A DNA stretch of 64,000 bases, taken from Thalassobaculum sp. OXR-137. Lineage in GTDB: Bacteria > Pseudomonadota > Alphaproteobacteria > Thalassobaculales > Thalassobaculaceae. Each line of letters begins with the position of its first letter. Within the stretch, counting starts at the first letter, position 1. The notes under the pieces were generated by a model that saw nothing but the letters and a program-made list of their open reading frames with translations, searched no databases and was not told the DNA's origin. The stretch lies in assembly GCF_034377285.1 (NCBI RefSeq), contig NZ_CP139715.1, positions 4,820,001 to 4,884,000 of the forward strand. The letters run 5' to 3'. Position numbers and translations under genes: made by a program. This document shows positions 20,912-38,832 of the stretch, piece by piece.

Positions 20912-21439
20912 ATGCCTTTGGAAGCCCCCGACAAGGACCCGATGGTCCCCTACCAGCTCCCCTTTCCCAAGGAAGCCCAGCAGGAGATCGTCGTCCCCAA
21001 CGCGATCCCGACGGACGACCGGCTCTGGGTCAAGCAGGCGGAGAACGTGTTCTTCCGCCCGCTCTGCCTGAACGTGTCCCAGGGCTACTGGATGAACCTG
21101 CTTAAGGTGACCAAGTCGGGCGTGCTGTCCCGCCACCGGCATCCGAACGCGGTGCACGGCTTCGTGCTGAAGGGCCGCTGGTATTACCTGGAACACGACT
21201 GGGTCGCCGAGGAAGGCGGCTATGTCTATGAGCCGCCGGGCGAGACCCACACCCTGGTCGTCCCCGAGGATGTCGAGGAGATGATCACCTACTTCCAGGT
21301 CAACGGCGTGATGTACTACTGCGACCCTTGGGGCAAGCATCTCGGCTACGAGGACGTGTTCACCAAGATCGACATGTGCCGCAAGCACTTCGAGCAGGTC
21401 GGCCTCGGCGCCGACTACGTGGACCAGTTCATCCGCTGA
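20912..21439 (+). CDS. 2,4'-dihydroxyacetophenone dioxygenase-like cupin
   Basis: Single-domain cupin of 175 residues that matches the 2,4'-dihydroxyacetophenone dioxygenase family over its full length. These iron enzymes cleave the aliphatic C-C bond of an alpha-hydroxyketone with O2. The metal-binding cupin motif 1 is visible as SRHRHPNAVHGFVLKG, and the second cupin block begins at PPGETHTLVV, giving His and Glu ligands. ATG 20912 with GGAG about 10 bases upstream is chosen. A 14-base direct repeat (CAAGAAAACGACGG twice) lies in the short gap after the SDR gene. The actual substrate may differ from the founding member. Confidence 0.87.
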   Translation: MPLEAPDKDPMVPYQLPFPKEAQQEIVVPNAIPTDDRLWVKQAENVFFRPLCLNVSQGYWMNLLKVTKSGVLSRHRHPNAVHGFVLKGRWYYLEHDWVAEEGGYVYEPPGETHTLVVPEDVEEMITYFQVNGVMYYCDPWGKHLGYEDVFTKIDMCRKHFEQVGLGADYVDQFIR

Positions 21440-21473
21440 GGCTGTTACGCCCCAGCGGATCGATTGGCGACGG

Positions 21474-22337
21474 TCAGGCCGGCACGATGAACGGCTTGGC
21501 CTGGCTGTCGTAGTCGCCATAGCCGAGCGTATCGCGGAACTCCGCCGGGCTGAGCGCGCCGGAGGTCTCCGCCTGGCCGGCGGCGAGGGCGGCAAGGCCC
21601 GCCTTCATGCCGGCGATGGCCGGCGACAGCATGCCGGTCGGATAGGTGCCGATCTTGAAGCCCAGTTCCGCCGCCTCTTTCTGGCTCGGGCAGGCGCGCT
21701 GCGCACCCGGCGACAGGACGGAGAAGGACGGACGTCCGCCGGCCGCCTCCACCGCGCGGCGGATCTCATCGTTGTCGGCGGGCGAGTCCAGGAACAGGAT
21801 GTCGGCCCCCTCCTCCACATACATCTCGATCCGGGCCACCGCCTCGTCGATGCCCTGGGTCGGCCGGCAGTCGGTGCGCGCCAGGACCAGGATGCCGGAC
21901 TCCTTCGCCGCTTCCACGGCCGCGCGGATCTTCATCCGGGCTTCATCGCGGGACAGGCAGGGCTTGCCGGCGGCGGTCAGCGCCCGCGGGGTGATCTTGT
22001 CCTCGATCAGCACGGCGGCGGCCCCGGCCCGGCCATAGGCCCGCACCGTGCGCTGCACGTTCATCGCGTTGCCGTAGCCGTGGTCGCCATCGGCCAGCAC
22101 CAGGGTCTCCGGGGCCGCGCCATGGACCATGTTGAAGCTGTCGAACATCTCGCCGAAGGACACCAGATCGAGGTCGGGGCCGCCGAGACGGCTGGCCGCC
22201 ACGCAGGAGCCCGACAGGAACGCCGTCTTGAACCCCGCCTGGGCGGCGAGCTTGGCGGAGAGACCGTCCCAGGCCGCCGGCATGACGATGAATTCAGGCT
22301 CGGCCAGAAGGGCGCGCAGTCTTTCGGGAGCGGTCAC
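21474..22337 (-). CDS. Isocitrate lyase/PEP mutase family protein (oxaloacetate decarboxylase-like)
   Basis: TIM-barrel lyase of 287 residues from the ICL/PEP-mutase superfamily. FIVMPAAWDGLSAKLAAQAG opens the barrel, and the metal-binding loop is ADGDHGYGNAMNV; IEDK is present. The KKCGH active-site loop of isocitrate and methylisocitrate lyases is missing, so a decarboxylase/hydrolase role on an oxo-acid is more likely. GTG 22337 is chosen because GAGGA lies about 8 bases upstream and the protein aligns from there. It converges with the cupin gene and is divergent from the amidase. Confidence 0.85.
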   Translation of the reverse strand: MTAPERLRALLAEPEFIVMPAAWDGLSAKLAAQAGFKTAFLSGSCVAASRLGGPDLDLVSFGEMFDSFNMVHGAAPETLVLADGDHGYGNAMNVQRTVRAYGRAGAAAVLIEDKITPRALTAAGKPCLSRDEARMKIRAAVEAAKESGILVLARTDCRPTQGIDEAVARIEMYVEEGADILFLDSPADNDEIRRAVEAAGGRPSFSVLSPGAQRACPSQKEAAELGFKIGTYPTGMLSPAIAGMKAGLAALAAGQAETSGALSPAEFRDTLGYGDYDSQAKPFIVPA

Positions 22338-22501
22338 GGCTGTTTCCTCGCGGTATCGTTTTTTGGTGTCCGGCGACGATAGGAGCCTGCCCCGGCGGCC
22401 ACAAGCCGGGTTCCGCTTCGGCCGCCAGTCCTGCCGAATTGGCATCTTTACCCTGCTCCCTCCGCTTGCTTGAGTTGGCGCCTAACCAGCAGGGGAAGAC
22501 G

Positions 22502-23959
22502 ATGGCGGCGAGCACCGAACTGACGAAGCTGACGGCGCGCGAGGCGGTGCGGCTGCTGGACATGGGCGAAGTCTCGCCGCTGGAGCTGATCGACGCGGCG
22601 GCCGCCCGCATCGCCGAGCTCGAGCCGGCGGTCAACGCCCTTCCGACGCTCTGCCTGGACCGCGCCCGCGAGGCCGCCAAGACCCTGACGGAACGCGCCG
22701 GCAAAGGCGCGCCCGGCTGGCTCGCCGGGCTGCCGGTGGCGATCAAGGACCTGATGGATGTGAAGGGCGTCCGCACCACCTACGCCTCGCCGATCTATGC
22801 CAACCACGTGCCCGACCGCTCCCATCCGCTGGTGGAGAAGATCGAGGACCGTGGCGGGCTGGTCATCGCCAAGTCGAACACCCCGGAATTCGGTGCCGGC
22901 GGCAACACCTACAACGAGGTCTTCGGCAAGACCCGCAACCCTTGGAACACCTCCCTCACCCCGGGCGGCTCGTCCGGCGGCGCGGCGGTGGCGCTGGCCA
23001 CGGGCGAGGTCTGGCTGGCCCACGGCTCCGACCATGGCGGCTCCCTGCGTGGCCCGGCTGCCCATACCTCCGTCGTCGGCCTGCGCCCGTCCCCCGGCCG
23101 GGTCACTCGGGGCACGTCGAACAACCTGTTCAGCCCGAGCTCGGTGGAAGGGCCGATGGCGCGAAACGTGCCGGATATCGCCCTGTTCCTCGACACCATG
23201 GCGGGCCAGTGCCCGCGCGACCCGATGAGCCGCCCGGCCCCGGAGCGCAGCTTCGCCGGCACGGTGGACGCGGCCCTGGCCGACAAGAAGGCCTGGTGGC
23301 CCAAGCGGGTCGCCTTCTCTCCCGATCTCGGCGGCGTCGCTCCCATCTCAAAGGCGGTGCGCGGGGTGATCGGCGAGGCGGTGCGCAATTTCGAAACGCT
23401 CGGCATTCCGGTGGAGGAAGCCTGCCCCGAGATGGGCGGGATCGGCGAGGCGTTTCAGATCCTGCGGGCCATGATCTTCGTGGTGAATCACGGCGAGCGG
23501 CTGAAGACCCACCGCCACCAGATCAAGCCGGACATCATCTGGAACACCGAGAAGGGCCTCGCCCTGTCGCCGGAGGAGATCGCCTGGGCGGAGCGGGAAC
23601 GGGCCGCCTTCTACCGTGGGGTGGCCGATTTCTTCGAGACCTACGACCTGCTGGTGCTGCCAGTGACCGTGCTGCCGCCCTACGACGTCAACAAGACCCG
23701 GATCGACGGTGTCGACGGGGTGAAGTTCGACAATTACATCGCCGCCTCGGCGACCACGTCGTCGATCACCCTGACCGCCTGCCCCTCCCTCTCCCTGCCG
23801 GCGGGTTTCACCGAGGACGGCCGCCCGGTCGGCATCCAGGTGGTCGGCAAACCCCATGACGATGCCGGCCTGCTGGCGGCGGCGGCCCTGCTGGAGGACA
23901 TGACCGGCCTCGCCAGCAAGCTCCCGATCGACCCACGGGCGGGCGAGCCGATCGACTGA
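22502..23959 (+). CDS. Amidase (amidase-signature family)
   Basis: Amide hydrolase of 485 residues with an intact Ser-cisSer-Lys triad. The Lys is in LPVAIKDLMDV, the cis-Ser in TPGGSSGGAAVAL, and the nucleophile Ser in HGSDHGGSLRGPAAH. The family usually has GTDGGGS at the last site; the SDHGG variant is within the known range. ATG 22502 is preceded by AGGGGA. The substrate is unknown. It is followed on the same strand by a flavoprotein monooxygenase and two reductases, which may form a catabolic set. Confidence 0.93.
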   Translation: MAASTELTKLTAREAVRLLDMGEVSPLELIDAAAARIAELEPAVNALPTLCLDRAREAAKTLTERAGKGAPGWLAGLPVAIKDLMDVKGVRTTYASPIYANHVPDRSHPLVEKIEDRGGLVIAKSNTPEFGAGGNTYNEVFGKTRNPWNTSLTPGGSSGGAAVALATGEVWLAHGSDHGGSLRGPAAHTSVVGLRPSPGRVTRGTSNNLFSPSSVEGPMARNVPDIALFLDTMAGQCPRDPMSRPAPERSFAGTVDAALADKKAWWPKRVAFSPDLGGVAPISKAVRGVIGEAVRNFETLGIPVEEACPEMGGIGEAFQILRAMIFVVNHGERLKTHRHQIKPDIIWNTEKGLALSPEEIAWAERERAAFYRGVADFFETYDLLVLPVTVLPPYDVNKTRIDGVDGVKFDNYIAASATTSSITLTACPSLSLPAGFTEDGRPVGIQVVGKPHDDAGLLAAAALLEDMTGLASKLPIDPRAGEPID

Positions 23960-24047
23960 CCCCATGGCGCGACAGCGAGCCCCCTTTGCGACGACGTCCG
24001 AAGGTGGTTGAGTCACCCCCGGATCGGGATTGCACGGGGGCACGGAT

Positions 24048-25319
24048 ATGAAGGTTGAAAAGGTGGAGACGCTGGTCGTCGGCGCGGGCCAGGCGGGTGT
24101 CGCGATGAGCGCGCATCTGGGGTCCCTCGGGGTGCCGCATCTGGTGCTGGAGCGCGGCCGCATCGCTGAGCGCTGGCGGTCCGGCCGCTGGGACTCGCTG
24201 GTCGCCAACGGTCCCGCCTGGCACGACCGGTTCCCCGGCCTGGAATTCGACGACGTCCACCCCGATGGCTTTCCCGGCAAAGAGCGGGTGGCCGCCTATT
24301 TCGCCGACTACGCGGCCAAGGTCTCGGCCCCGATCCGCTGCGGCGTTGAGGTGACCAAGGTCACCCGCCACCCCGATCGGCCGGGCTTCCATGTGGAGAC
24401 CTCCGACGGGCCGATCGACGCGAAATATGTGGTCGCCGCCACCGGGCCGTTCCAACGTCCGATCATTCCTCGCATCGTGCCGCAGAGCGCGCCGGTGACG
24501 CAGATGCATTCCGCCGCCTACCGCAATCCTGACCAGCTCGCCGACGGGTCGGTGCTGGTGGTCGGCTGCGGGTCGTCGGGTGCGCAGATCGCCGACGAGC
24601 TGCTGCGGGCGGGGCGACGGGTCTACCTCTCGGTCGGCCCGCATAACCGCTACCCCCGCCGCTACCGGGAGCGCGACTACTGCTGGTGGCTCGGCGTGCT
24701 CGGCCGCTGGGACGCGGAGACGCCAGACCCGGATACCCAGCACGTCACCATCGCGGTCAGCGGCGCCTATGGCGGCCACACGGTCGATTTCCGCCGGCTG
24801 GCCGAGCGCGGCATGACCCTCGTCGGCCTGACCGCCGGGTATAAGGACGGGGTGATCCGCTTCGCCCCCGACCTCGCGGACAATCTGGCGCGCGGCGACG
24901 AGAGCCTGATGTCGGAACTCGACCAGGCCGACGCCTATATCTCCCGCAACGGCCTCGACCTGCCCGAGGAGCCGGAGATGCGGGTGATCCCCGCCGACCC
25001 GGCCTGCGTCACCGAGCCGACTCTGGAGCTGGATCTGGCCGCCGCGGGGGTGAGTACGATCCTGTGGGCCACCGGCTACGAATACGATTTCGGCTGGCTG
25101 CAGGTCGACGCCTTCGACGCCGCCGGCAAGCCGCAGCACAAGCGCGGTGTGTCGACCGAGGCCGGCCTGTATTTCGTCGGACTGCCCTGGCTGTCGCGGC
25201 GCGGCTCGTCCTTCATCTGGGGGGTCTGGCACGATGCGCTCTACGTGGCCGACCACATCGCCACCCACCGGCAATACTTCGCCTATGACCGCGACGCCCG
25301 GGCGCGCGCCGGGCGCTGA
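24048..25319 (+). CDS. FAD/NAD(P)-binding flavin monooxygenase (CzcO-like)
   Basis: A 423-residue flavoprotein with two Rossmann motifs: GAGQAG near residue 13 for FAD and GCGSSG near residue 175 for NAD(P)H. ERWRSGRWDSL follows the FAD motif as in CzcO/FMO-like monooxygenases, and a C-terminal ATGYEYDF block is typical. It lacks the Baeyer-Villiger fingerprint, so N- or S-oxygenation, or hydroxylation, is more likely. ATG 24048, with GGGGG about 10 bases upstream, is chosen over the upstream TTG at 24030. It lies 88 bases after the amidase on the same strand. Confidence 0.88.
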   Translation: MKVEKVETLVVGAGQAGVAMSAHLGSLGVPHLVLERGRIAERWRSGRWDSLVANGPAWHDRFPGLEFDDVHPDGFPGKERVAAYFADYAAKVSAPIRCGVEVTKVTRHPDRPGFHVETSDGPIDAKYVVAATGPFQRPIIPRIVPQSAPVTQMHSAAYRNPDQLADGSVLVVGCGSSGAQIADELLRAGRRVYLSVGPHNRYPRRYRERDYCWWLGVLGRWDAETPDPDTQHVTIAVSGAYGGHTVDFRRLAERGMTLVGLTAGYKDGVIRFAPDLADNLARGDESLMSELDQADAYISRNGLDLPEEPEMRVIPADPACVTEPTLELDLAAAGVSTILWATGYEYDFGWLQVDAFDAAGKPQHKRGVSTEAGLYFVGLPWLSRRGSSFIWGVWHDALYVADHIATHRQYFAYDRDARARAGR

Positions 25320-25403
25320 CTCCGCAGACGTCATTTCCCGTATGGTCAGGGGGCCCGCCCGCCTCCTACAAGGAAGGCCAACCATCTCGGGAGGACTAAC
25401 TCA

Positions 25404-26300
25404 ATGAATGTCGGTTTTATCGGGCTCGGCCGCATGGGGCGGCCGATGGCATCCAACATGGCCCGCAAGGGCTTCCGCCTCGTCGTCAACGACATCAATC
25501 CGGCGGCCGTCAAGGAGCTCGAGGAGCTTCAGGCCTCCAGCGCGCCGAATGCGGCCGAGGTCGCGAAGAAGAGCGACGTGATCATCACCATGCTGCCCGA
25601 CGGCCCTGTCGTGCGCGAGGTGATCGGCGGCGCCGACGGCGTCATCGCCAACGCCCCCAAGGGCGCGCTCATCATGGACATGAGCACCGTGGAGCCGGGC
25701 ACCACCGACGATCTCGCCGCCCAGGCAAAGGCCAAGGGCCTACGATACGTGGATGCGCCGGTCGGCCGCCTGGCGGCCCATGCGGATCGCGGCGAGTCGC
25801 TGTTCATGGTCGGCGCCGAGCCGGAGGATTTCGAGCTGGTGAAGCCGATGCTCGAGGCCATGGGCACGACGATCTATCACTGCGGCGGTGTCGGCACCGG
25901 CACGCGGACCAAGCTGGTGAACAACTTCCTGGCGGTCGCCTCCTGCCAGTTCAACGCCGAGGCGCTGGCCCTGTCCCAGGGCCTGGGGCTGAACCTGGAG
26001 AGCACGCTGGACGTGATCTACGGCACCACGGCGATGAACGGCCAGCTCAAGATCAACTGGCCGGACAAGGTGCTGGCCGGCGACACTTCCCCGGGCTTCA
26101 CCATCGACCTCGCCCATAAGGACCTGTCGCTGATCATGCAGGCGGCCAACGCCGCGAAGGTGCCGATGCCCATGGCGGCGGCGGCCCGCGAGATGTTCAG
26201 CGCCGCCCGTGCCCGCGGGTTCGGCTCCCAGGACTTCTCGGCCATGGTCGACGCCCATTGCGATCTCGCCAATATCGAGAAGCCGCGCCTCAAGAAGTAA
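25404..26300 (+). CDS. NAD-binding beta-hydroxyacid dehydrogenase, sulfolactaldehyde-reductase (YihU)-like
   Basis: Member of the 3-hydroxyisobutyrate dehydrogenase superfamily, 298 residues. The NAD motif GLGRMGRPMASN opens the protein, and the catalytic Lys is in GTRTKLVNNFL. Instead of the usual DAPVSGG it has VDAPVGR, and the C-terminal half reads SPGFTIDLAHKDLSL and then VPMPMAAAARE, close to YihU, which reduces sulfolactaldehyde or succinic semialdehyde. I infer a small aldehyde-acid as substrate. SD GGGAGG lies about 8 bases upstream. A second, more typical paralogue follows. Confidence 0.87.
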   Translation: MNVGFIGLGRMGRPMASNMARKGFRLVVNDINPAAVKELEELQASSAPNAAEVAKKSDVIITMLPDGPVVREVIGGADGVIANAPKGALIMDMSTVEPGTTDDLAAQAKAKGLRYVDAPVGRLAAHADRGESLFMVGAEPEDFELVKPMLEAMGTTIYHCGGVGTGTRTKLVNNFLAVASCQFNAEALALSQGLGLNLESTLDVIYGTTAMNGQLKINWPDKVLAGDTSPGFTIDLAHKDLSLIMQAANAAKVPMPMAAAAREMFSAARARGFGSQDFSAMVDAHCDLANIEKPRLKK

Positions 26301-26413
26301 CCACGACCGCGTCCCGCCGGCAGCGCATGCCGGCGGGACCTGCTGGCTTTCGGCATAAGGGAGGCGCCGGTCCGACCGCGATGAACCTCTCGGCCATTCA
26401 CGGGAGGAAGACA

Positions 26414-27283
26414 ATGCGTATCGGATTTCTCGGTATCGGGAATATGGGCCGCCCGATGGCCGGCAAGCTGCTTGATGCGGGCCACGAGCTCTGGGTCTAC
26501 GACATCCGCGACGAAGCGATGCAGCCGCTGCTGGAGCGTCAGGCCCGCAAGGCGGCCTCGCCGAGGGATTTGGCGGATGCCTGCGAGACGGTGGTGGTGT
26601 CCCTGCCGACCCTGGCGATCTTCCGTCAGGCCCTGGACGAGTTGCTTACCGGCGAGGCTCTGAAGACCGTGGTGAACACCTGCACCGTCGGCGGTCCGTT
26701 CGTCGCGGAGGTGGAACGCCTCTGCGCCGCGCGCGGCGTGACGGTCATCGACGCGCCGATCAGCGGCGGTCCGGCCGGCGCGACCGCCGGGACGCTCGCG
26801 GTGATGGTGTCCGGCGATCCGCAGACGGTCGAGAGTCTGCAGCCGGTCTTCCGCGCCTGGGGGCCGACCGTCGTGGTGGCCGGCGAGACGGTCGGTGCGG
26901 CGCAGACCATGAAGCTGACCAACAACATCCTGTTCGCCGTCGGCCTCGTCGCGACCTCGGAGGCCATGACCATGGCCGAGAAGGGTGGGATCGCGCCGGA
27001 GACCATGCTGCAGGTGCTGAACAACGGCACCGGGCGAAACTTCTCCACCGCCCATGTCTTTCCGGCGAACATCGTGCCGGGCACGTTCGATTTCGGCGCG
27101 ACCCTGGAGATCCTGATGAAGGACGTCGATCTCGCCATCGAGCAGGGCGAGGCGCTGGGCGTGCCCATGTGGGTCTGCCAGGCCGCGCGGCTGGTGATGC
27201 TGCACGGCACGTTCCAGGGCCGGTCGGCGCAGGACCTGTCGCGGATCGTGGAGATCGTGCGGGAGGGGGCCAAGGAGGACTGA
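26414..27283 (+). CDS. 3-hydroxyisobutyrate dehydrogenase family protein
   Basis: NAD(P)-dependent beta-hydroxyacid dehydrogenase, 289 residues. GFLGIGNMGRPMAGKLL binds the cofactor, DAPISGGPAGATAGTLAVMV is the standard substrate-binding motif, and the catalytic Lys is in AQTMKLTNNILF. ATG 26414 has GGAGG about 6 bases upstream and homology starts there. It is the second such gene in tandem, 113 bases after the first. The two proteins differ in the substrate motif, so they probably act on different hydroxyacids rather than being redundant. Confidence 0.92.
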   Translation: MRIGFLGIGNMGRPMAGKLLDAGHELWVYDIRDEAMQPLLERQARKAASPRDLADACETVVVSLPTLAIFRQALDELLTGEALKTVVNTCTVGGPFVAEVERLCAARGVTVIDAPISGGPAGATAGTLAVMVSGDPQTVESLQPVFRAWGPTVVVAGETVGAAQTMKLTNNILFAVGLVATSEAMTMAEKGGIAPETMLQVLNNGTGRNFSTAHVFPANIVPGTFDFGATLEILMKDVDLAIEQGEALGVPMWVCQAARLVMLHGTFQGRSAQDLSRIVEIVREGAKED

Positions 27284-27372: not shown

Positions 27373-28476
27373 TCAGACCTCGACCTCGATGGTCCCGATC
27401 GGTTGTGTGCAGCAGGCGAGCACATAACCCTCCTCCACCTCGTCCTCGCGGATGCCGCCGTTATGGACCATGTGGGTCTGGCCGGACGCCACCTTGATCT
27501 TGCACGTGCCGCAGACGCCGAACTGACAGCCGCTCGGAATATTGAGCCCGGCTTCGCGCGCCACCGACAGGATGGTGTCGGTCTCGTGGCACGACGCCTC
27601 CAGGTCCGAGGCCAGGAAGCGGATGCGCGCCTTCTTGCTCTCGTCGGGGATCACGTCGTCCGGCTCGTCCACTGCCGCCGGATCGGTCACCGGGGCGTGG
27701 AAGCTCTCCTCGTGATAGCGCTCCATGTCGAAGCCGGCGGCATTCAGCACGTCGCGCACCGCCTGCATGAAGGCGGCCGGTCCGCAGCAGAAGATCTCGC
27801 GCTCGAAATAATCCGGCGCGATCAGCTCCAGCATCAGCCCGTTCAGCCGTCCGCGATAGCCGGTCCACACGCTGTAGGGGTCCGGCTCGCTGACCACCCA
27901 GGCGAGGTTGAAGGACGGCACACGGGCCGCCATGCGTTCCAGCTCGGCCCGGAAGATGATCTCCGAGGGGCGCCGGGCGCAGTTGATGAAGGCGATGTCG
28001 CAATGCCGGCCCTGGTCGAAGAACCAGCGGGTCATCGACATCATCGGCGTGATGCCCGACCCGGCGGAGATGAACAGGTATTTGTCCGACGGCCAGGTAT
28101 GGCAGGAGAAGAATCCGGCCGGCCCGAAGGCCTTCAGCCTTCCACCGACCTGCAGATTGTCGAACAGCCAGCGGGTGCCCACGCTGTCGTCCTGCAGCTT
28201 CACGGTGATGGCGATCAGCATCGGCCGCGACGGGCTGGAGGACAGGGTATAGGTCCGGTGCACCGTGCCCGACGGCAGCGGGATCTCCAGGGTGATGAAC
28301 TGGCCCGGCTGATAGCGGAACCAGCTCTCCTCCGGCGTCTGAAAGCAGTAGGTGCGGGCACTGGCGGTTTCCGGCAGCACCGCCACGCATTCCAGCATCT
28401 GCGACTGGGCGTTCCAGGGAACCAGCTCGTCCAGATTGCGGAAGCGCGGCAGGGCCTCGATCGACCGCATGGTCAC
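27373..28476 (-). CDS. Rieske oxygenase reductase component (FAD, NADH and 2Fe-2S domains)
   Basis: A 367-residue electron-transfer flavoprotein. An FAD-binding barrel (residues 20-130, with HRTYTLSSSP as FAD motif) is followed by an NAD-binding domain (SAGSGITPMMSMTRWF) and a C-terminal plant-type 2Fe-2S domain with the cysteines of CQFGVCGTC and a distal CC. This order fits the reductase partners of quaternary-amine Rieske enzymes such as GbcB. GTG 28476 overlaps the oxygenase stop codon (GTGA), with ATG 28470 as alternative. It passes electrons from NAD(P)H to the oxygenase encoded just before, and should share that transcript's cobalamin riboswitch. Confidence 0.93.
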   Translation of the reverse strand: MTMRSIEALPRFRNLDELVPWNAQSQMLECVAVLPETASARTYCFQTPEESWFRYQPGQFITLEIPLPSGTVHRTYTLSSSPSRPMLIAITVKLQDDSVGTRWLFDNLQVGGRLKAFGPAGFFSCHTWPSDKYLFISAGSGITPMMSMTRWFFDQGRHCDIAFINCARRPSEIIFRAELERMAARVPSFNLAWVVSEPDPYSVWTGYRGRLNGLMLELIAPDYFEREIFCCGPAAFMQAVRDVLNAAGFDMERYHEESFHAPVTDPAAVDEPDDVIPDESKKARIRFLASDLEASCHETDTILSVAREAGLNIPSGCQFGVCGTCKIKVASGQTHMVHNGGIREDEVEEGYVLACCTQPIGTIEVEV

Positions 28477-29717
28477 GCGACCTCGCTACGGCGCTCCGGG
28501 GTGCCGCCGAGACGGCGGCGCATGATGCCGGTGTACCAGTCGACGAACTGGATCACCCCGGCCTCCTGGGTCGGCGAGTACGGACCCGGCTGATAGGCCG
28601 GAGAGTTCACACCGATCTGGTTCTCCTCGACCACCTTGCGGTCCTGGTCGTTGGTGGCGAGCCAGACCTTGGTCAGCTCGTCGAGGTCGTAATCCACCCC
28701 CTCCACCGCATCGCGATGCACCAGCCACTTGGTGGTGACGGCGGTCTGCAGCGGGCCGACCGGCAGCACCCGGAACGAGATCGCATGGTCGCCGAGCACG
28801 TGGTTCCAGGTGGTCGGGTAGTGGTAGAGCAGCAGCGCGCCCAGGCCGGAGCCGCGGACCGCGTCGCTGAGCGGCCGCTTCACGGCCGCCTTGCCCGACA
28901 GGGTGTAGCTCTCCGCATTGCGCAGCAGCGGCATGCGGGTGATGCGGTACTGGGCGTCATCGGCCATGTCGAAGCCGCTCGGCAGGCCCAGCGCGCGGCA
29001 TTTGTCCCACAGCGCGATAAGGGCCGGATCGCCTTCGCTGGCGTTCGGATCGGCATGGGTGACCGTGTCGGGGAAGGTGCGGCAGAGCTCGGGATGGCTG
29101 CCGGCGCAGTGATAGCACTCGCGGTTGTTCTCCCAGACCAGCTTCCAGTTGCCGTTCTCGATGATCGTGGTCTCGTGCACCACCTTGGCATCGCGCAGCC
29201 GGTGCGGGGCCAGATACGGCTCGATCATCGCGCGGATCGGGGCGAAGTCGGGGGCATGGTCGGCGACGCATATGAAGAGATATCCCGCCACGCCCTCGCA
29301 ATGCACCGGCTTCAGCCCGTAGGACGCGGGGTCGAAGCCCGGGCCCATGTCGCGGGCGAAGAGCAGCCGGCCGTCGAGCTCGTAGGTCCACTGGTGATAG
29401 GGGCAGACCAGCTTGGCCACCGCCCCTTTCTCCGCCGAGCACAGGCGGGAGCCGCGGTGGCGGCAGGCATTGTGAAAGGCGCGGATCTCGCCGTCGGCGC
29501 CGCGGATCACGATCACCGGATAGGCGCCGACCTGGACCGTCAGGTAGCAGCCGGGCTTGGCAAGCTCGCAGTCATGGCCGACGAACAGCCAGTCGCGGTA
29601 GTAGATCAGCTCCAGGTCCAGGGCGTAGGTCTCGGGCGAGACGTACAGGTCCCGCTCCAGGCTGAAGCCGGATTTCTGGCGAAGAAGAAGTTCCTGAGTC
29701 CGAAGCCGCGCATCCAT
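28473..29717 (-). CDS. Rieske non-haem iron oxygenase alpha subunit, GbcA/CntA-type (quaternary amine) demethylase-like
   Basis: This 414-residue oxygenase carries the Rieske cluster ligands in CRHRGSRLC and CPYHQWTYELDG, and the mononuclear iron site in NRECYHCAGSHPEL. The residue two before Tyr-His, which bridges the two metal centres, is Glu here rather than the usual Asp, as in carnitine monooxygenase CntA and related quaternary-amine oxygenases. The N-terminal KSGFSLERDLYVSPETYALD also resembles the betaine/stachydrine demethylase group. I infer oxidative N-demethylation of a methylated amine. The start ATG 29717 follows GGGGTG. A cobalamin riboswitch lies 138 bases upstream on the same strand. 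Confidence 0.92.
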   Translation of the reverse strand: MDARLRTQELLLRQKSGFSLERDLYVSPETYALDLELIYYRDWLFVGHDCELAKPGCYLTVQVGAYPVIVIRGADGEIRAFHNACRHRGSRLCSAEKGAVAKLVCPYHQWTYELDGRLLFARDMGPGFDPASYGLKPVHCEGVAGYLFICVADHAPDFAPIRAMIEPYLAPHRLRDAKVVHETTIIENGNWKLVWENNRECYHCAGSHPELCRTFPDTVTHADPNASEGDPALIALWDKCRALGLPSGFDMADDAQYRITRMPLLRNAESYTLSGKAAVKRPLSDAVRGSGLGALLLYHYPTTWNHVLGDHAISFRVLPVGPLQTAVTTKWLVHRDAVEGVDYDLDELTKVWLATNDQDRKVVEENQIGVNSPAYQPGPYSPTQEAGVIQFVDWYTGIMRRRLGGTPERRSEVA

Positions 29718-29854
29718 CACATCACCCCGCGTCGAAGACACGTTTCACAAAGGCGGGTCCGGTGGATGGGATCGGCGCCGGCGGCCGGCGGTCCTGAGAG
29801 CGGACATGCCGACGCACAGCCCGCCGATCGCCCACCGCGATCCCCTGGCCGTTC

Positions 29855-30035
29855 CGAGGCTGGTTTCCGGACTCTGAAGCGGTCCTTTCGGACCCGCGCG
29901 GCGCCTTCCCGGTCATCCCAGTGGCTCTTTGCCGCGCTGCGCACTCCAATACCGTTGCAGGGGCAGTCCCGGGATTTCACCGGCTTCCCAATTCTCCGCC
30001 CGCCGGCTCCTCCAGGCCGGACGGACAGCACCTCG
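29855..30035 (-). ncRNA. Cobalamin riboswitch upstream of the Rieske oxygenase operon
   Basis: Read on the minus strand, the conserved core is present in order: GGTGC, GGGAAGCCGGTG, CCGGGACTGCCCCTGCAAC, GAGCCACTGG, CCGGGAAGGC, and the B12-box-like GAGTCCGGAAACCAGCC. A P1 helix pairs CGAGG (30035-30031) with CCTCG (29859-29855) at the very ends. Its 3' end is 138 bases before the oxygenase ATG. Cobalamin riboswitches normally switch genes off when B12 is plentiful. A possible expression-platform hairpin (GATCGC/GCGATC) lies at 29826-29842. Confidence 0.92.
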
Positions 30036-30130
30036 ACAGACTAAGGCTACGCCCGATCGGGCCCAGGCGTTGCGTCCCAGCGCGACCTGAGTTTGTCCGC
30101 CGACGACATACCCGGCGGCACAGGAAACGA

Positions 30131-30158
30131 TTGACGGCGCAGCGCAAATCATTACTAA
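30131..30158 (+). promoter_or_regulatory. Probable promoter of the nrdAB leader
   Basis: TTGACG at 30131-30136 and TACTAA at 30153-30158 (16-base spacer) lie in AT-richer sequence and end 6 bases before the riboswitch P1 helix, so the transcript would begin at the riboswitch. Confidence 0.5.
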
Positions 30159-30163
30159 ATGCA

Positions 30164-30355
30164 GCGTTCACGGTCTCTGGATGACCAACATCTAGGGCTA
30201 AGAGGGAATCCCGGTGCGCCTTCGGGCAAAGCCGGAGCTGCCCCCGCAACTGTTAGCGGCTAGCGGCTGTCGAGAGGGGTCACTGGTGTCCATGGGACGC
30301 TGGGAAGGCCAGACAGTCGTTCGGACCCGCGAGCCAGGAGACCTGCCGTGAGCGC
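30164..30355 (+). ncRNA. Cobalamin riboswitch upstream of nrdAB
   Basis: Conserved elements appear in order: GAGGGAATCCCGGTG, GAGCTGCCCCCGCAACTGT, GTCACTGG, GGGAAGGCC and the B12 box GAGCCAGGAGACCTGCC (30331-30347). P1 pairs 30164-30173 with 30346-30355 (one G-T wobble). It precedes a class I ribonucleotide reductase, a known target: the B12-independent enzyme is repressed when cobalamin is available for the B12-dependent class II enzyme. Confidence 0.96.
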
Positions 30356-30429
30356 ATATCCGTCCCGGGCGGGGTGATCCGGAAGGCGCTTGCTGGGCTG
30401 TTGCCCATTCCCGCAGGCCCTGCCGACTC

Positions 30430-30455: not shown

Positions 30456-32384
30456 ATGTCTACGCAACTGGCCTACGACTTCGACGAATCCGGCAATTTC
30501 CCGCCCGCTCCCATCGCGCCGAAAGCGGCGGCCCCAAGGCCTGCCGCAGCGAAAGCAGAGCCGCAGCGGGCACCCCTGCCGCGTCCGCTGGCCAAGGCGC
30601 CGACGCCGGACGATCTGGTGCTGGACCGGAGCCGCGATTCGCTGCTGACCGAGTTCGGCAAGGCCACCCTGCGCGACCGCTACCTGATGCCGGGCGAGGA
30701 CTTCCAGGCAATGTTCGCCCGGGTCTCCTGCGCCTATGCCGACGACATCGACCACGCCCAGCGGCTGTACGACGCCATGTCGCGGCTGTGGTTCATGCCG
30801 GCGACCCCGATCCTGAGCAACGGCGGCACCACCCGCGGCCTACCGATCTCCTGCTTCCTGAACACCGTGCCGGATTCCCTCGACGGCATCGTGAACACCT
30901 GGAACGAGAACGTCTGGCTGGCGGCGAACGGCGGCGGCATCGGCACCTATTGGGGCAAGGTCCGCTCCATCGGCGAGCAGGTGAAGGGCACCGGCGAGAC
31001 CTCGGGCATCATCCCCTTCATCCATGTCATGGACGGCCTGACGCTGGCGATCAGCCAGGGTTCCCTGCGGCGCGGCTCGGCGGCGGTGTATCTCGACATC
31101 CACCACCCGGAGATCGAGGAGTTCCTCGAGATCCGCAAGGCCAGTGGCGACTTCAACCGCAAGGGCCTGAACCTGCATCACGGCATCAATGTCACCGACG
31201 ATTTCATGGAGGCGGTGCGTGACGGCGCGATGTTCGACCTGAAGAGCCCGAAGAACGGTGAGGTCATGCGCCAGGTCGATGCGCGCCAGCTCTGGCAGCG
31301 AATCCTGGAGACCCGACTGCAGACCGGCGAGCCGTACCTGCTCTACATCGACAGCGTGAACAACAACCTGCCCAAGCATCAGCGCGAGCTGGGGCTGAAA
31401 GTCTCCACCTCCAACCTGTGCAGTGAGATCACCCTGCCGACCGGGGCCGATCACCTGGGCGAGGAGCGCACCGCCGTGTGCTGCCTGTCGTCGCTCAACA
31501 TCGAGACCTGGGAGCAGTGGAACGAGGAGCCGGGCTTCGTCGAGGACGTGCTGCGGATGCTCGACAACGTGCTGACCAGCTTCATCGAGAACGCCCCGGA
31601 CGGCATGTCCCGGGCGCGCTACTCCGCCATGCGGGAGCGCTCGGTCGGTCTCGGCGTCATGGGCTTCCACTCCTTCCTGCAGGCCCAGGGAATCCCGTTC
31701 GAAAGCGCCCTGGCCAAGTCCTGGAACATGCGGATCTTCAAGAAGATCCGGCGCGAGGCCGACGCCGCGTCCGTGGCACTGGCCGAGGAACGCGGTCCCT
31801 GCCCCGACGCCGCCGAGCGCGGGATGCAGAGCCGGTTCAGCCACAAACTGGCGATCGCCCCGACCGCGTCCATCAGCATCATCTGCGGCGGCACCAGCGC
31901 CTGCATCGAGCCGATCCCGGCCAACATCTACACCCACAAGACCCTGTCCGGCGCCTTCACCGTGCGCAACCCGCACCTCAAGAAGCTGCTGGCGACCAAG
32001 GGCGCGGACACGCCGGAAACCTGGGAGAGCATCCTGGAGCATGAGGGCTCGGTGCAGCATCTCGACTGCCTGACGGAAGACGAGAAGTCGATGTTCCGCA
32101 CCGCCTTCGAGATCGATCCGCGCTGGCTCATCGACTTCGCCGCCGACCGCGCGCCCTTCATCTGCCAGAGCCAGTCGCTCAACCTGTTCCTGCCGGCCGA
32201 CATCCATAAGTGGGACCTGCACATGCTGCACTGGACCGCTTGGGAGCGGGGCATCAAGAGCCTGTACTATTGCCGCTCCAAATCGGTCAGCCGGGCCGGC
32301 TTCGCCGGGCAGTTGGAGAAGGTCGAACGCCAGGCCTTCACGGTCGAGCCGACCGATTACGAGGAGTGCCTGTCATGTCAGTGA
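30456..32384 (+). CDS. nrdA: Class I ribonucleoside-diphosphate reductase, alpha subunit
   Basis: Catalytic subunit of aerobic ribonucleotide reductase, 642 residues, making dNDPs. Conserved sites are present: the redox Cys in PISCFLNTVP, the thiyl-radical loop SNLCSEITLP, the second redox Cys in AVCCLSSLN, the Tyr pair of the radical path (SLYYCRSK), and a C-terminal CxxC tail (EECLSCQ). It is about 120 residues shorter than Escherichia coli NrdA, and the N-terminal ATP-cone is missing; residues 10-50 are Ala/Pro-rich instead. ATG 30456 has GAGGGG upstream. It overlaps nrdB by 10 bases. Expression is under a cobalamin riboswitch. Confidence 0.95.
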   Translation: MSTQLAYDFDESGNFPPAPIAPKAAAPRPAAAKAEPQRAPLPRPLAKAPTPDDLVLDRSRDSLLTEFGKATLRDRYLMPGEDFQAMFARVSCAYADDIDHAQRLYDAMSRLWFMPATPILSNGGTTRGLPISCFLNTVPDSLDGIVNTWNENVWLAANGGGIGTYWGKVRSIGEQVKGTGETSGIIPFIHVMDGLTLAISQGSLRRGSAAVYLDIHHPEIEEFLEIRKASGDFNRKGLNLHHGINVTDDFMEAVRDGAMFDLKSPKNGEVMRQVDARQLWQRILETRLQTGEPYLLYIDSVNNNLPKHQRELGLKVSTSNLCSEITLPTGADHLGEERTAVCCLSSLNIETWEQWNEEPGFVEDVLRMLDNVLTSFIENAPDGMSRARYSAMRERSVGLGVMGFHSFLQAQGIPFESALAKSWNMRIFKKIRREADAASVALAEERGPCPDAAERGMQSRFSHKLAIAPTASISIICGGTSACIEPIPANIYTHKTLSGAFTVRNPHLKKLLATKGADTPETWESILEHEGSVQHLDCLTEDEKSMFRTAFEIDPRWLIDFAADRAPFICQSQSLNLFLPADIHKWDLHMLHWTAWERGIKSLYYCRSKSVSRAGFAGQLEKVERQAFTVEPTDYEECLSCQ

Positions 32385-33463
32385 TTCCCGACTCCCTGGT
32401 CCATCTCGACCCGCGCGAGCTGATCGGCACCGGCCGGGTCGGCCTGCTGGAATCGACCGGCACCTACGACGTCAGCCGCTACGGCTGGGCCTACGAGTTC
32501 TGGAAGCGCCAGCAGCAGACCCACTGGATGGGAGAGGAAGTCCCGCTCGGCGGCGACCTGAAGGACTGGGCCTCGCCGCGGGTCTCCGAGGCGGAGCGGG
32601 CCCTGCTGACCCAGATCTTCCGCTTCTTCACCCAGTCGGACGTGGAGGTGGGCGACAACTACCTGAAGCGCTACATCCCGATTTTCCAGCCGCTGGAAAT
32701 CCAGATGATGATGGCGGCCTTCACCAACATGGAGACCGTGCATATCGACGCCTATGCCCTGCTGCTGACCACCCTGGGCATGCCGAAGGCGGAGTTCGAG
32801 GCGTTCCGCGACTACGACGCCATGCGCTCCAAGGCCGACTACATGCACACCTTCGGCGTCGGCACGGTCGGCGACGTGGCGCGTACCCTGGCGATGTTCG
32901 GCGCCTTCACCGAAGGCATGGCGCTGTTCGCCAGCTTCGCCATGCTGCTGAACTTCCCGCGCCACAACAAGATGAACGGCATGGGCCAGATCGTGAGCTG
33001 GTCGGTGCGCGACGAGAGCCTTCATTGCGAGGGCATCGTGCGGCTGTTTCACGAGTGGAACCGCGAGACCGGCGCGCTCACGCCGGCGGTGCGCGACGAC
33101 ATCGTCGACGTGGCCAAGACCATGGTCGGGCTGGAGGAGAGCTTCGTCGATCTGGCCTTCGAGCTGGGCGAGATCGAGGGCATGACGGCGCAGGACATCA
33201 AGGACTACGTCCGCTACATCGCCGATTGGCGCCTGACCCAGCTCAAGCTGCCGACGGTCTTCGGCAATTTCGAAGTGGCCGAGGGCGGCTACCGCCAGCT
33301 CAAGCCGCATCCCCTGCCCTGGCTGGTGGAGATCCTGAACGGGGTCGAGCACGCGAATTTCTTCGAGCAGCGGGCGACCGAATACTCCAAGGCCGCCAGC
33401 CGCGGCAGCTGGGACGGCGCCGATGGCGTGTGGTCGATGTTCGAGGGCCGCAAGCGGGCTTAG
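32375..33463 (+). CDS. nrdB: Class I ribonucleoside-diphosphate reductase, beta subunit
   Basis: Radical-generating diiron subunit, 362 residues. Metal ligands and the radical Tyr are visible in METVHIDAY (E, H and Y in the spacing of E. coli E115, H118 and Y122), and the second ligand pair in SVRDESLHCEG. The presence of Tyr points to a tyrosyl-radical enzyme. ATG 32375 lies inside the end of nrdA with GAGGAG at 32361-32366, so the two are translationally coupled. No ATP-cone is found at its N-terminus either. A complex inverted repeat follows the gene. Confidence 0.95.
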   Translation: MSVIPDSLVHLDPRELIGTGRVGLLESTGTYDVSRYGWAYEFWKRQQQTHWMGEEVPLGGDLKDWASPRVSEAERALLTQIFRFFTQSDVEVGDNYLKRYIPIFQPLEIQMMMAAFTNMETVHIDAYALLLTTLGMPKAEFEAFRDYDAMRSKADYMHTFGVGTVGDVARTLAMFGAFTEGMALFASFAMLLNFPRHNKMNGMGQIVSWSVRDESLHCEGIVRLFHEWNRETGALTPAVRDDIVDVAKTMVGLEESFVDLAFELGEIEGMTAQDIKDYVRYIADWRLTQLKLPTVFGNFEVAEGGYRQLKPHPLPWLVEILNGVEHANFFEQRATEYSKAASRGSWDGADGVWSMFEGRKRA

Positions 33464-33671: not shown

Positions 33672-35813
33672 TTACCAGGTCGCCTTCAGGGTCAGCATGA
33701 CCTCGCGGCCGGCCCCGTAGGAGCAGACGTATTCGGTCTGACAGCCTGTCACGTAGCGCTTGTCGGCGACGTTGGTGGCCGAGAGGTTCAGGTCCAGGTT
33801 CTCGGACAGCTCATACCCCGCGTACAGGTCGAACAGGGTCGCGTCCGGCACGGTCAGCGTGTTGGCGTCGTTGGCATAGCTCTCGCCGCGGTGGCGCACG
33901 CCGGCGCCGATCGACACGCCGTCCAGCAGCGGGCCCTGGAAGGCGTATTCCGCCCGCAGCGTCAGCTCGTGGTCCGGGATCAGGGTCGGGGTGTTGCCGA
34001 TCAGCGAGGCATCGGTGTCCTCGGTCACCTCGGCGTCCAGCACCGTCGCCGTCGCCGCCAGGGTCAGGCCGAAGCCGAACTGGTAGCCGCCCTCGAACTC
34101 GAACCCGGTCGAGCGCACCGCGCCGAGCTGGTTGTAGTTCGGGAACGCCCCTGTCACCACGTTCTCCCGGTCGATCTGGAACACCGCACCCATGAGGTAG
34201 AAATTCTCACCCTCCGGTGCCCATTTCACGCCAGCCTCCACCTGCTCGCCGGTCTCCGGCTCGGTCACACCGTTGGCCGGCGAGGTGATCAGCGGGTTGA
34301 AGAAGCTCGAGTAGCTGACATAGGGCGTGATGCCGAGCGGGAACTCGTAGCCCACCGCCGCGCGCCAGGAGCTTTCGCTGTCGCTGCGCTCGAACCCGGC
34401 GGCACCGTCCTGCTCGGTCTCCACGAAGTCGTGGCGCAGGTTGCCGGTGACGATCCAGCCGTCGCCGAAACGGAGCTGGTCCTGCACATACAGGCCGGTC
34501 TGCGACTGGGTCGTCGTCGCGTCCTGATACGGTGCGCCGAGGGTCGGGGTGCCCGGGTTGGTCGGGTTGACCACCTGATTGGTGCCGAAGCCCGAGGCCT
34601 GGGTCTCGTCGAGCCAGTAGTAGCGGGCATCCAGACCGAACAGCAGGTCGTGGCTGACCGGACCCGTATGCACCGTGCCGTAGTAGCGGATATCGGTCTG
34701 GGCGGTGCGGACCAGGGTGTCGTGCTCGAAGGCGATCAGGCTGAGGGTGCCCTGGGCGTCGCTCGGCGTGGTTGCGTAGCCGGCATAGCCGAACGGGTAG
34801 TAGTAACGCTCCTCGACGCTGGCCACTCCGGCGCGGCCGATGCCGGTCAGGGTGAAGTTGTTGTCGAAGGTATGCTCGGCGATGGCGGTCGCGGAGAACT
34901 GCTCGCGCTTGTAGCTGTCCCACTCCTCGTCGGAGAAGTTGGCGTCCCGGTCGATATAGCCGAACTGGTCGGTCGCGGTGACGGTGCCGGCATAGGGCAG
35001 GAACGTGCTGCCGTTATGTTTCTCGTCGGCCACATGGGCATTGGCCAGCAGGGTGACCTCGGTGCCGTGGCTGGTCTCGAACTTGTAGGACGGGGCCAGG
35101 GTGCCGCGCACGCCCTCGTTCGGGTCGTCGTATTTGTCGCCGCCCTTGATCTTGCCGATCACGCGGTAGGCCTGGCCGTTCTCCAGCGGATCGCCGTAGT
35201 CGAAGGACAGCGATGCGGCCGGTGCATCCTCGATGCCGAGGACGACCTCGCGCACCCGCTCGCCCGGCCGCTTGGAGATGTAGTTGACGATGCCGCCCGG
35301 GTTGGACCCGCCGTACAGCGCCGAGGACGGTCCGCGCAGGACTTCGATCCGCTCCAGCGCGTAGGGGTCGATATAGAACGAGCCGAAGGCGAAGGAGAGG
35401 TTCTGGGCGTTGTCCAGGTAGGTGCCGGTCTGGTCGGCCTGGAAGCCGCGGATCCGCAGCCAGTCGTAGTCGGTGTCGTTGCCGAACACGTCGGCGGTCA
35501 CGCCGGGGGTGTAGCGCAGCGACTCGCTGACGCTGTCGGCGTTGAACCGCTCCAGATCCTCGCGGCCGAGGATCGAGAGGGACTGGGGCACCTCGGTGGC
35601 GAAGACCGGGGCCTTGGATCCGGTGACGGTCGGCGGATTGTTGCTGTCCCCCACCGGGCCGGTCGCGTCCTCCTGATTGCCGAGGACCTTCAGCGGCTCG
35701 AGAACGATGGTCTTGCCGGCGTCCTGCGCCAGGGCGGATCCCGCGGTCGGCACCATCAGGGCGGACAGGACGAAACGCAGGGCCAGGCCCCGTTTGAAAA
35801 CCGATGTGCTCAT
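33672..35813 (-). CDS. TonB-dependent siderophore receptor
   Basis: Outer-membrane ferric-siderophore receptor of 713 residues. A signal peptide ends near GSALAQDAG, followed by a TonB-box-like segment (KTIVLEPLKVLG) and the plug domain (VPQSLSILGREDLER, ESLRYTPGVTADVFG, EVLRGPSSALYGGSNPGGIVN). The beta barrel ends in an aromatic residue (LKATW), as outer-membrane proteins need. ATG 35813 is chosen since the signal peptide starts there. It lies 81 bases after the AraC regulator gene on the same strand, so the two probably form one iron-regulated unit. The siderophore is unknown; ferrichrome/pyoverdine-type receptors are closest in style. Confidence 0.95.
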   Translation of the reverse strand: MSTSVFKRGLALRFVLSALMVPTAGSALAQDAGKTIVLEPLKVLGNQEDATGPVGDSNNPPTVTGSKAPVFATEVPQSLSILGREDLERFNADSVSESLRYTPGVTADVFGNDTDYDWLRIRGFQADQTGTYLDNAQNLSFAFGSFYIDPYALERIEVLRGPSSALYGGSNPGGIVNYISKRPGERVREVVLGIEDAPAASLSFDYGDPLENGQAYRVIGKIKGGDKYDDPNEGVRGTLAPSYKFETSHGTEVTLLANAHVADEKHNGSTFLPYAGTVTATDQFGYIDRDANFSDEEWDSYKREQFSATAIAEHTFDNNFTLTGIGRAGVASVEERYYYPFGYAGYATTPSDAQGTLSLIAFEHDTLVRTAQTDIRYYGTVHTGPVSHDLLFGLDARYYWLDETQASGFGTNQVVNPTNPGTPTLGAPYQDATTTQSQTGLYVQDQLRFGDGWIVTGNLRHDFVETEQDGAAGFERSDSESSWRAAVGYEFPLGITPYVSYSSFFNPLITSPANGVTEPETGEQVEAGVKWAPEGENFYLMGAVFQIDRENVVTGAFPNYNQLGAVRSTGFEFEGGYQFGFGLTLAATATVLDAEVTEDTDASLIGNTPTLIPDHELTLRAEYAFQGPLLDGVSIGAGVRHRGESYANDANTLTVPDATLFDLYAGYELSENLDLNLSATNVADKRYVTGCQTEYVCSYGAGREVMLTLKATW

Positions 35814-35894
35814 GTGGCGATACCCCCAGTAAGGCGCGCCGTCCGCAGCGGTCCCCCTGGACACCGGACGGCGATAAGCGATCGTTCGCCCTGC

Positions 35895-36761
35895 TTAGGG
35901 TCGGGCCGTTCGGCTGTCTTGAACGAACGCCCCGGCTTTTGAACATTCGTGCCGCTTGGTCCAGCGGCCGGGCGACATGCCGGTCGCATGCCGGAAGCAC
36001 CGGCTGAAATGCGCCTGATCGGCAAAGCCGGTATCGTGGGCCACCTGGGACAGCATGGCCCCCTCGCTGAGCAGCCGCTGGGCCTGCTTGATGCGGGTGC
36101 CCATTACCCATTGGTGCGGCGGCATCCCGGCCAGCTCCTTGAACCGCCGGGTGAAGCGGGAGCGCGACATTCCGGCCAGCGAGGCAAGCTCCTCGACGCT
36201 GGGATGCCGGTCGAGCCGGCCGCGGACGTGATCCATCACTTCGTCCAGCCAGGCGGGCGTCGCCCGGGCGGCGCTGAGCTGCGCGCCGAGATGGAAGAAC
36301 TCGTGGATCACCCCGCAGGCCAGCGCCTCGCCGTAGCCGGCCGGTCGCTCGGGCCGCCGGCACTCGTCCGCCAGCAGGGCGCAGAGCCGGCGCAGCTCGA
36401 TGCTGTCGGGCAGGAACAGGGCCTGGTCGAGGCTCACCTGCGGTCCGACGAGCGCCCGCAGGCGGTCGGCGTCCACATGGATGTCGATATGTTCGAGGTC
36501 GCCGGCCGCGGCCAGCCGGCCGCACAGGGCCATGCCGGCCGGCACGAAGAACGCGCTGCACAGCGCAGACACGGCACCCTCGGCCGGGCTCAGCGCGATC
36601 TGCGCCCCGTCGAACAGCATCACGAAGCGCGGATCCGGCGAGACGTAGCGGCCGCCCGCCCCCTGCCCGGCCTCGACCCGCCACAGGTCTATCGCCATCC
36701 AATCGAACTTCAGGCAGCTCACCGCGGCCAGCGGCACGATCCGCTCCACGGTCGATGTCAT
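35895..36761 (-). CDS. AraC family regulator of siderophore uptake (PchR-like)
   Basis: This 288-residue protein has an AraC C-terminal DNA-binding domain (PSVEELASLAGMSRSRFTRR, then VAHDTGFADQAHFSRCFRHA). The N-terminal domain is of the effector-binding type seen in PchR-like activators of siderophore receptors. ATG 36761 (residues MTSTVERIVP) is chosen. An upstream ATG at 36854 would begin inside a Fur-like box, so it is unlikely, although the ribosome site at 36761 is poor. It precedes the receptor and probably activates it when the ferric siderophore is present. Confidence 0.9.
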   Translation of the reverse strand: MTSTVERIVPLAAVSCLKFDWMAIDLWRVEAGQGAGGRYVSPDPRFVMLFDGAQIALSPAEGAVSALCSAFFVPAGMALCGRLAAAGDLEHIDIHVDADRLRALVGPQVSLDQALFLPDSIELRRLCALLADECRRPERPAGYGEALACGVIHEFFHLGAQLSAARATPAWLDEVMDHVRGRLDRHPSVEELASLAGMSRSRFTRRFKELAGMPPHQWVMGTRIKQAQRLLSEGAMLSQVAHDTGFADQAHFSRCFRHATGMSPGRWTKRHECSKAGAFVQDSRTARP

Positions 36762-38553: not shown

Positions 38554-38832
38554 CCGGCGACGGCCGCGAAGGCCAACCCCGACCGCCGATCCACAAGAAG
38601 CTGCAAATGAATGCAAATCATTACACTAGGTAGCACTCATACGGGCAGCGCACAGTCGAGTTCGTGGGGAATGAGGACGGGATATCGGCTACGGAGCGGA
38701 CCGCTCCGTCGAGGAGAATGATGTTGAACACGTCCCCATCCGCTCCGGCGACGCGCATTCTGTCCCGCCCGGGCCTTCGCGGACTGGACCGGCAACCGAC
38801 CGAGCGTGCCGGCGGATACCGGACCTGATCGG

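Follow-up and report, generated by a model that had tools for sequence, protein, structure and literature searches.

The 64,000-nucleotide (nt) stretch of the Thalassobaculum sp. OXR-137 genome analysed here (contig NZ_CP139715.1, positions 4,820,001 to 4,884,000; hereafter the window) contains, on its minus strand, a gene pair coding for a Rieske-type oxygenase and its reductase, preceded by a cobalamin riboswitch that we call the leader. A second cobalamin riboswitch, higher-scoring and overlooked in an earlier sequence-only reading of this DNA, diverges from the first at a distance of 104 bases and precedes the class I ribonucleotide reductase genes nrdAB. The coordinates of these features are collected in Table 1.

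Table 1. Features of the Rieske operon, its leader and the divergent nrdAB operon (positions in the window)
Feature	Position	Strand	Evidence or remark
GbcA/Stc2-type Rieske oxygenase, 414 aa	28473..29717	-	PF00355, PF00848; NF058607 GbcA 522 bits, cut-off 670
GbcB-type reductase, 365 aa	27373..28470	-	FAD, NAD and 2Fe-2S ferredoxin domains; NF058606 GbcB 380.5 bits, cut-off 500
Cobalamin riboswitch aptamer, Rieske operon	29841..30049	-	RF00174 79.7 bits, E 5.2e-18
L5 loop region CTGCCCCTGCAAC	29954..29966	-	one C-to-T change relative to CCCCCGC
Peripheral hairpin GCCACTG...GGGAAGGC (GCCACTG...GGGAAGG)	29903..29925	-	absent from the leader of same-genus genome G027
3' conserved B12 box GAGTCCGGAAACCAGCC	29858..29874	-	covariance match and leader alignment
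P13-like hairpin GATCGCGGTGGGCGATC, 3' of the aptamer	29826..29842	-	pattern in 49/52 leaders
Ribosome-binding site and start GCGGGGTGATGTGATGG	29714..29730	-	start codon ATG 29717-29715; pairs in folds of the 3' part
Second cobalamin riboswitch, of nrdAB	30154..30364	+	RF00174 116.9 bits, E 1.2e-28
Class I ribonucleotide reductase alpha, nrdA	30456..32384	+	NF006577 1017 bits; B12-independent isozyme
Class I ribonucleotide reductase beta, nrdB	32375..33463	+	PF00268; NF007186 504 bits

The Rieske leader aligns with the full length of the RF00174 model (positions 1-189 of 189; cmscan, cut-off 31.5 bits). The covariance search thus bears out the full riboswitch core, closed by a P1 helix, that the sequence-only reading had placed at 29855-30035 of the minus strand. 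Our own covariance model, R1, gives the leader 103.6 bits, but this leader belonged to the training set of R1. The conserved core, L5, the B12 box and the downstream hairpin are all present, L5 with one change. The pattern of the downstream hairpin is centred on GATCGCGG-x-GGGCG-xTC and leaves two outer stem positions unspecified; these are paired in all nine variants. Folded as a single sequence, the leader does no better than shuffles (z 0.31), which is uninformative; the riboswitch call is based on the covariance model together with conservation.

The aptamer, trimmed at 29854, is separated by 136 nt from an ATG at 29717 (123 nt from the end of the Rfam match), which fits the 138-base spacing proposed earlier. 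This ATG is favoured over an alternative in-frame start, GTG at 29741, because of the alignment with genome G025 and the presence of GCGGGGTGA 5' of it. A hairpin takes in the Shine-Dalgarno sequence and the start codon in many of the folded leaders (CAGTCCTTG...GAGGACAGGACATG in the case of Mesorhizobium). Across 51 leader loci, the start region has an average pairing of 0.69, vs 0.54 across 31 leaderless ones (p 1.9e-7, ignoring kinship); the statistic was computed on 51 of the 52 leaders, the G027 leader being set aside because its automatically chosen start was wrong.

The oxygenase harbours the CxH-CxxH motif of Rieske proteins (CRH...CPYH, at residue 85) and a catalytic domain, and its partner is a Fer2/FAD/NAD reductase, as in two-component Rieske non-haem iron oxygenases. 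The top NCBIfam models of the two proteins are GbcA and GbcB. Since the oxygenase scores 522 bits where the GbcA model demands 670, we describe it as GbcA-like and do not file it as GbcA. The closest chains in the Protein Data Bank (PDB) are 3n0q, 3vca and 4qup, with 551-573 bits; we take 3vca to be the stachydrine demethylase Stc2 of Sinorhizobium meliloti. A search of the genome for a second homologue of the oxygenase returned none at E 0.001. By family, the enzyme is predicted to be a quaternary-amine N-demethylase, with glycine betaine as its likely substrate.

We then considered homologous loci. Close homologues of the oxygenase are found in three genomes of the genus, namely the window's own (G000), G025 (95%) and G027 (87%), in a family sample of 36 genomes (an order-level search gave the same 36), and the riboswitch precedes the Rieske gene in all three. 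The layout of G025 is that of the window. In G027, other genes, and not nrdAB, lie next to the pair with its riboswitch; in that genome, the NrdJ search gave no class I NrdA match of the kind seen below cut-off for G000 and G025. Two other genomes of this genus, G023 and G024, are one-contig assemblies of 1.5 Mb, 99% complete, next to congeners of 4.7-5.6 Mb; neither the Rieske gene nor RF00174 was matched in them.

The wider survey comprised the best 80 of 591 confirmed loci, all from named genomes, obtained by a one-protein scan of the genome collection. Its covariance model, trained on 21 riboswitches from the family to which the window's genome belongs, the two of the window among them, was run on 100 sources. 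A same-strand cobalamin riboswitch ends 91-222 nt before the start of the matched gene in 49 of the 80 loci, in genera including Mesorhizobium, Rhizobium, Labrys, Inquilinus, Aminobacter and Phyllobacterium. An Rfam re-scan confirmed the leader in the three leader loci that were re-checked (L064, L079 and L116) and found no riboswitch in any of the leaderless loci that it covered, 14 of the 31. The leader is also present in 6 of 12 extra loci from a sample of 385 genomes of the class, and in four of seven loci from the plasmid collection, those of S. meliloti (L189), Cereibacter (L190), Ruegeria sp. TM1040 (L191) and Shinella (L193). The other three comprise a Rhizobium locus with a weak, 32-bit match (L188) and two without a leader, from Paracoccus versutus (L187) and at the Stc2 locus (L192). 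In a protein tree labelled for the leader, we counted 11 leader changes; this may be an overcount because the leaders of L188-L191 and L193 are not yet in the labels. One surveyed contig, L086, is titled Arenimonas (Gammaproteobacteria); its synteny is of the Rhizobium type and its place in the tree is among Rhizobiaceae, which points to a mis-binned contig or a mislabelled metagenome-assembled genome.

Seven further model matches in the 80 loci precede nrdAB (three), metE (two) and TonB receptors (two), the genes having been named partly by the scan and partly by clustering with a scanned gene. In two Mesorhizobium loci (L104 and L108), three riboswitches lie side by side, for nrdAB, gbcAB and a convergent metE; the metE of L104 scores 1132 bits with TIGR01371, and that of L108 is named through clustering with it. 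In L071, an nrdAB riboswitch cut by the contig end is followed by nrdAB and then by the gbcAB leader. The methionine synthase gene metH adjoins the Rieske pair in L070, L072, L082 and L190, and a TonB receptor with its own riboswitch lies beside it in L092 and L072. By cluster membership, nrdAB or metE are neighbours in three of the 49 leader loci, metH in three and cobF in two. These counts are lower bounds because the gene caller, trained on the window, was incomplete: it made no calls in the leaderless loci L067, L076, L105, L138 and L139, and it overlooked the Rieske gene in L064. Thus, in a minority of loci, the company of the Rieske pair consists of B12-free isozymes and B12 uptake.

A B12-dependent counterpart is present in the same genome, according to Pfam domains and a PDB match. 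Two MTTB-family proteins resemble MtgB: one has 804 bits to 4yyc and 428.6 bits to the glycine betaine methyltransferase 9yce, and the other 338.7 bits to 9yce. The genome also codes for an MtgC-like corrinoid protein, adjoined by a DUF1638 protein, and for an MtgD-like pterin protein located between MetF- and RamA-like proteins. As the NCBIfam scores of the MtgB- and MtgC-like proteins lie under the cut-offs, the names MtgB, MtgC, MtgD and RamA are given by similarity. MetH is in two pieces, as read from the sequences, and a search for a long MetE found none, only two shorter PF01717 matches. Two NrdJ proteins are encoded elsewhere (C1:480703 and C1:5154496). Three FAO_M matches, related to dimethylglycine and sarcosine dehydrogenases, could serve the demethylation of dimethylglycine and sarcosine.

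Leader and MtgC tend to occur together. We looked for MtgC in 68 genomes, one of which holds two of the loci. This sample, from which L091 is absent, represents 29 of the survey's 49 leader loci and 20 of its 31 leaderless ones, together with genomes of the family and class samples (G handles); it does not extend to L184-L193 or to the other 20 leader and 11 leaderless survey loci. The count omits G019 and G026, which have no close homologue, and scores the weak 36% match of G387 as absent. MtgC was found for 37 of 38 leader loci, L095 being the exception, vs 10 of the 29 without a leader (Fisher p 1.3e-8, ignoring kinship). On the protein tree, a model of dependent evolution beats the independent one (likelihood ratio 22.1, p 1.9e-4, some rates being at their bounds), with fast loss of the leader where MtgC is absent. 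The tested loci that lack both belong to Brucellaceae, to Agrobacterium and part of Rhizobium, to Sphingomonas with G387, and to G371.

We consider it probable that the Rieske pair is made when cobalamin is scarce, as a substitute, O2-dependent and B12-free, for the corrinoid-dependent demethylation of quaternary amines. The sequence-only reading had made the same proposal, which gains support from the MtgB-, MtgC-, MtgD- and RamA-like proteins of the genome, from the leader-MtgC co-occurrence and from the riboswitch-bearing nrdAB and metE neighbours. The riboswitch and its conservation with the gene, the co-occurrence, and the clustering with nrdAB, metE and metH in some genomes were all computed directly. 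According to this model, GbcAB would N-demethylate a quaternary amine, most likely glycine betaine, with the help of O2 and without B12, and it would replace MtgB-MtgC-MtgD in the way that class I NrdAB replaces NrdJ and MetE replaces MetH. When cobalamin is plentiful, the 5' leader would bind the cofactor and translation would be blocked; when it is short, the leader would open and GbcAB would take over, the methyl group then leaving as formaldehyde and not as methyl-tetrahydrofolate. Cobalamin as the ligand and the OFF direction are predicted by analogy with the isozyme class, and the more strongly paired start region of leader loci suggests translational repression by bound cobalamin.

A broader view, held with less confidence, seems to us more likely than not: the Rieske pair would represent a third class of B12-dependent/B12-free isozymes, such that cobalamin status sets the route of betaine demethylation in many Alphaproteobacteria. 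With B12, betaine methyl groups would be passed to the corrinoid protein and on to methyl-tetrahydrofolate and methionine; without it, the Rieske demethylase, freed by its own riboswitch, would release them as formaldehyde. In some lineages, nrdAB, gbcAB and metE, with one riboswitch each, would form a B12-starvation island.

A number of observations weigh against the substitute model. The survey of Rieske homologues that the sequence-only reading had suggested as a check gave a divided answer: with 49 of 80 loci carrying the leader and 31 lacking it, the leader is neither unique nor universal, and it is missing from six genomes of the window's family that have a 58-61% homologue. Nor is the aptamer equally intact in the three genus genomes: CCCCCGC is the L5 sequence in 48 of 49 surveyed leaders, from which the window departs by its one change, and the G027 leader (L007, 1197-1395) keeps the core and lacks the peripheral hairpin, a loss that might alter the ligand preference. 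An ungapped test of L5/L13 complementarity gave no excess (5.1 vs 5.6 in shuffles). As to the proteins, both window subunits score under the cut-offs of their top models, as do all nine relatives, leader-bearing and leaderless, that we compared with the GbcA model (489-543 bits). The MtgC-like protein reaches 212 bits with the NCBIfam MtgC model, whose cut-off is 370, and the MtgB-like proteins are likewise under the cut-offs of equivalog or exception models. Stc2, which acts on stachydrine, is also among the closest characterised relatives, and glycine betaine is therefore a likely substrate and not a certain one. Ten leaderless loci, of which six come from the family of the window's genome, lie in MtgC-bearing genomes, and a test of independent pairs (Treekit) was not significant, with three supported pairs and on average 1.8 concordant and 0 discordant. 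As few groups lack both leader and MtgC, the co-occurrence amounts to about three or four losses, vs the ten leaderless keepers of MtgC. Lastly, the model does not account for an amidase, a flavoprotein and two HIBADH-like genes that flank the pair and are conserved in the genus.

Other explanations were weighed on the same data. The enzyme might act on another amine, stachydrine or another betaine, with an MttB-family enzyme other than MtgB as the B12-dependent counterpart. This variant, which overlaps with the substitute model, is possible but less likely. The close relationship with Stc2, encoded at L192 beside genes annotated stc3 and stc4, and the existence of two MTTB proteins in the genome are in its favour, but the locus of Stc2 itself has no leader, and the two MTTB proteins score 428.6 and 338.7 bits with the glycine betaine methyltransferase 9yce. 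Moreover, the 61.6% identical relative of P. versutus, itself leaderless, lies beside fdhA and a BCCT transporter gene and near folD, as in glycine betaine catabolism. It is unlikely that the demethylase instead feeds cobalamin synthesis and is regulated like a biosynthetic gene, betaine breakdown yielding glycine (for 5-aminolevulinic acid) and methyl groups. Glycine betaine is indeed listed for an S. meliloti B12 fermentation medium in the accessible text of PMC8123684, and two loci point in that direction and away from the substitute model: in Inquilinus (L079), cobF follows gbcB by 384 nt on the same strand, and in L070, cobF is upstream of metH-gbcAB. However, cobF adjoins only those two of the 49 leader loci, as against the nrdAB, metE and metH neighbours counted above, and CobG exceeds the cut-off in five of the seven genomes tested for it that have a leaderless locus; these genomes probably make B12 and yet have no leader.

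The cobalamin riboswitch upstream could also befit a cobalamin-biosynthetic oxygenase that replaces CobG, and the best CobG match in the window's genome is indeed under the cut-off (134 of 234.8 bits; CobZ was not searched for). This is the most improbable of the readings, as CobG exceeds the cut-off in 16 of the 31 leader-bearing genomes tested; in addition, the protein is a member of the GbcA/Stc2 family, and CobG is not among the six NCBIfam families that match it at E 0.001. Very unlikely, too, in our view, is a hitch-hiker or relic origin of the leader, in which the nrdAB riboswitch would have been copied and the copy would have no influence on the Rieske gene. Two divergent aptamers in a single intergenic region, the L5 change in the window and the hairpin loss in G027 would fit such an origin. 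Against it, the leader differs in sequence from the nrdAB aptamer and is kept with the gene in G027 and in distant loci that lack an adjacent nrdAB: the fetched flanks contain no member of the nrdA or nrdB cluster in 46 of the 49 leader loci, as far as the incomplete gene caller shows. Returning to the substitute model, its tests can be made in laboratory strains, since the records of S. meliloti and Ruegeria sp. TM1040 carry the leader.

RF00174 has four matches in the whole genome. Besides the two of the window, a third precedes a TonB receptor gene that has BtuF-, BtuC- and CobQ-like genes behind it; a fourth precedes a gene for an ABC ATPase, these names being read from the gene calls. Adjoining nrdB, genes for a TonB-dependent siderophore receptor and an AraC-type regulator, recognized by eye, occupy 33672-36761 on the minus strand. 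On the other side, a cluster beside the Rieske pair (20942-27283), conserved in G025 and G027, codes for a cupin-like protein (by eye), a phosphoenolpyruvate mutase/isocitrate lyase-like protein, the amidase, a flavoprotein of the MSMEG_0569 type and the two HIBADH-like dehydrogenases; it may share a pathway with the Rieske pair or serve another. Further away, at 38179-39721 on the plus strand, three small tandem open reading frames have signal-like N-termini and related, Cys-containing sequences (FTSCSSDAVL..., FRAHNCSNAP... and FTFKNCSPDT...).

If the model holds, an enzyme of the carbon and nitrogen cycles joins the short list of B12-replaceable functions, and the presence of two betaine demethylation systems in some soil and marine Alphaproteobacteria is explained. 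Betaine breakdown has been argued to widen the cobalamin demand of the ocean (PMC12478193, in the portion available); a bypass under riboswitch control would keep that demand down in the presence of O2.

The sequence-only reading did not count this gene type among the standard riboswitch targets. In the literature text accessible to our search, from which the 2003 surveys were absent, we found no report that places gbcA, stc2 or any other Rieske gene under a cobalamin riboswitch. The statement of the sequence-only reading may overlook a survey from that year, as Rodionov et al. reportedly listed a B12-regulated pair 'ardX-frdX', a dioxygenase with a ferredoxin component. If 'ardX-frdX' is the Rieske pair, the novelty lies in its identity, its breadth and the link with MtgC.

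Among known systems, the GbcAB glycine betaine monooxygenase of Pseudomonas and Chromohalobacter, cited as a two-component Rieske system in the available part of PMC12478193, provides the top curated family for both subunits. Unlike GbcAB proper, the window pair, compared through family models, remains under the equivalog cut-offs. Stc2 (3vca) matches with 551 bits over nearly the whole length, and L192 is in the same family tree; unlike the window locus, the Stc2 locus has no cobalamin leader. MtgBCDE, described in PMC12478193, is the presumed B12-dependent counterpart, with homologues of its parts in the window's genome; it depends on B12, whereas the window pair is proposed to be O2-dependent and B12-free. 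According to the portions seen of that paper, MtgC and MtgD of Ruegeria pomeroyi serve glycine betaine demethylation and methionine synthesis alike, bacteria with GbcAB and without MtgBCDE have canonical MetH, and the word riboswitch occurs once only, in a reference title. The nearest regulatory likeness is with the cobalamin riboswitches of metE and nrdAB, adjacent to that of gbcAB in L104 and L108. They belong to the same aptamer family, RF00174, and by analogy would share the same logic, in which B12 represses a B12-free enzyme, the isozyme class described in the available text of PMC9600662 and PMC3766115. The aptamer is an ordinary one, and the pair would join a known kind, that of B12-free isozymes under a cobalamin riboswitch; unlike in metE and nrdAB, the target would be a catabolic, O2-dependent demethylase and not a methionine synthase or a ribonucleotide reductase.

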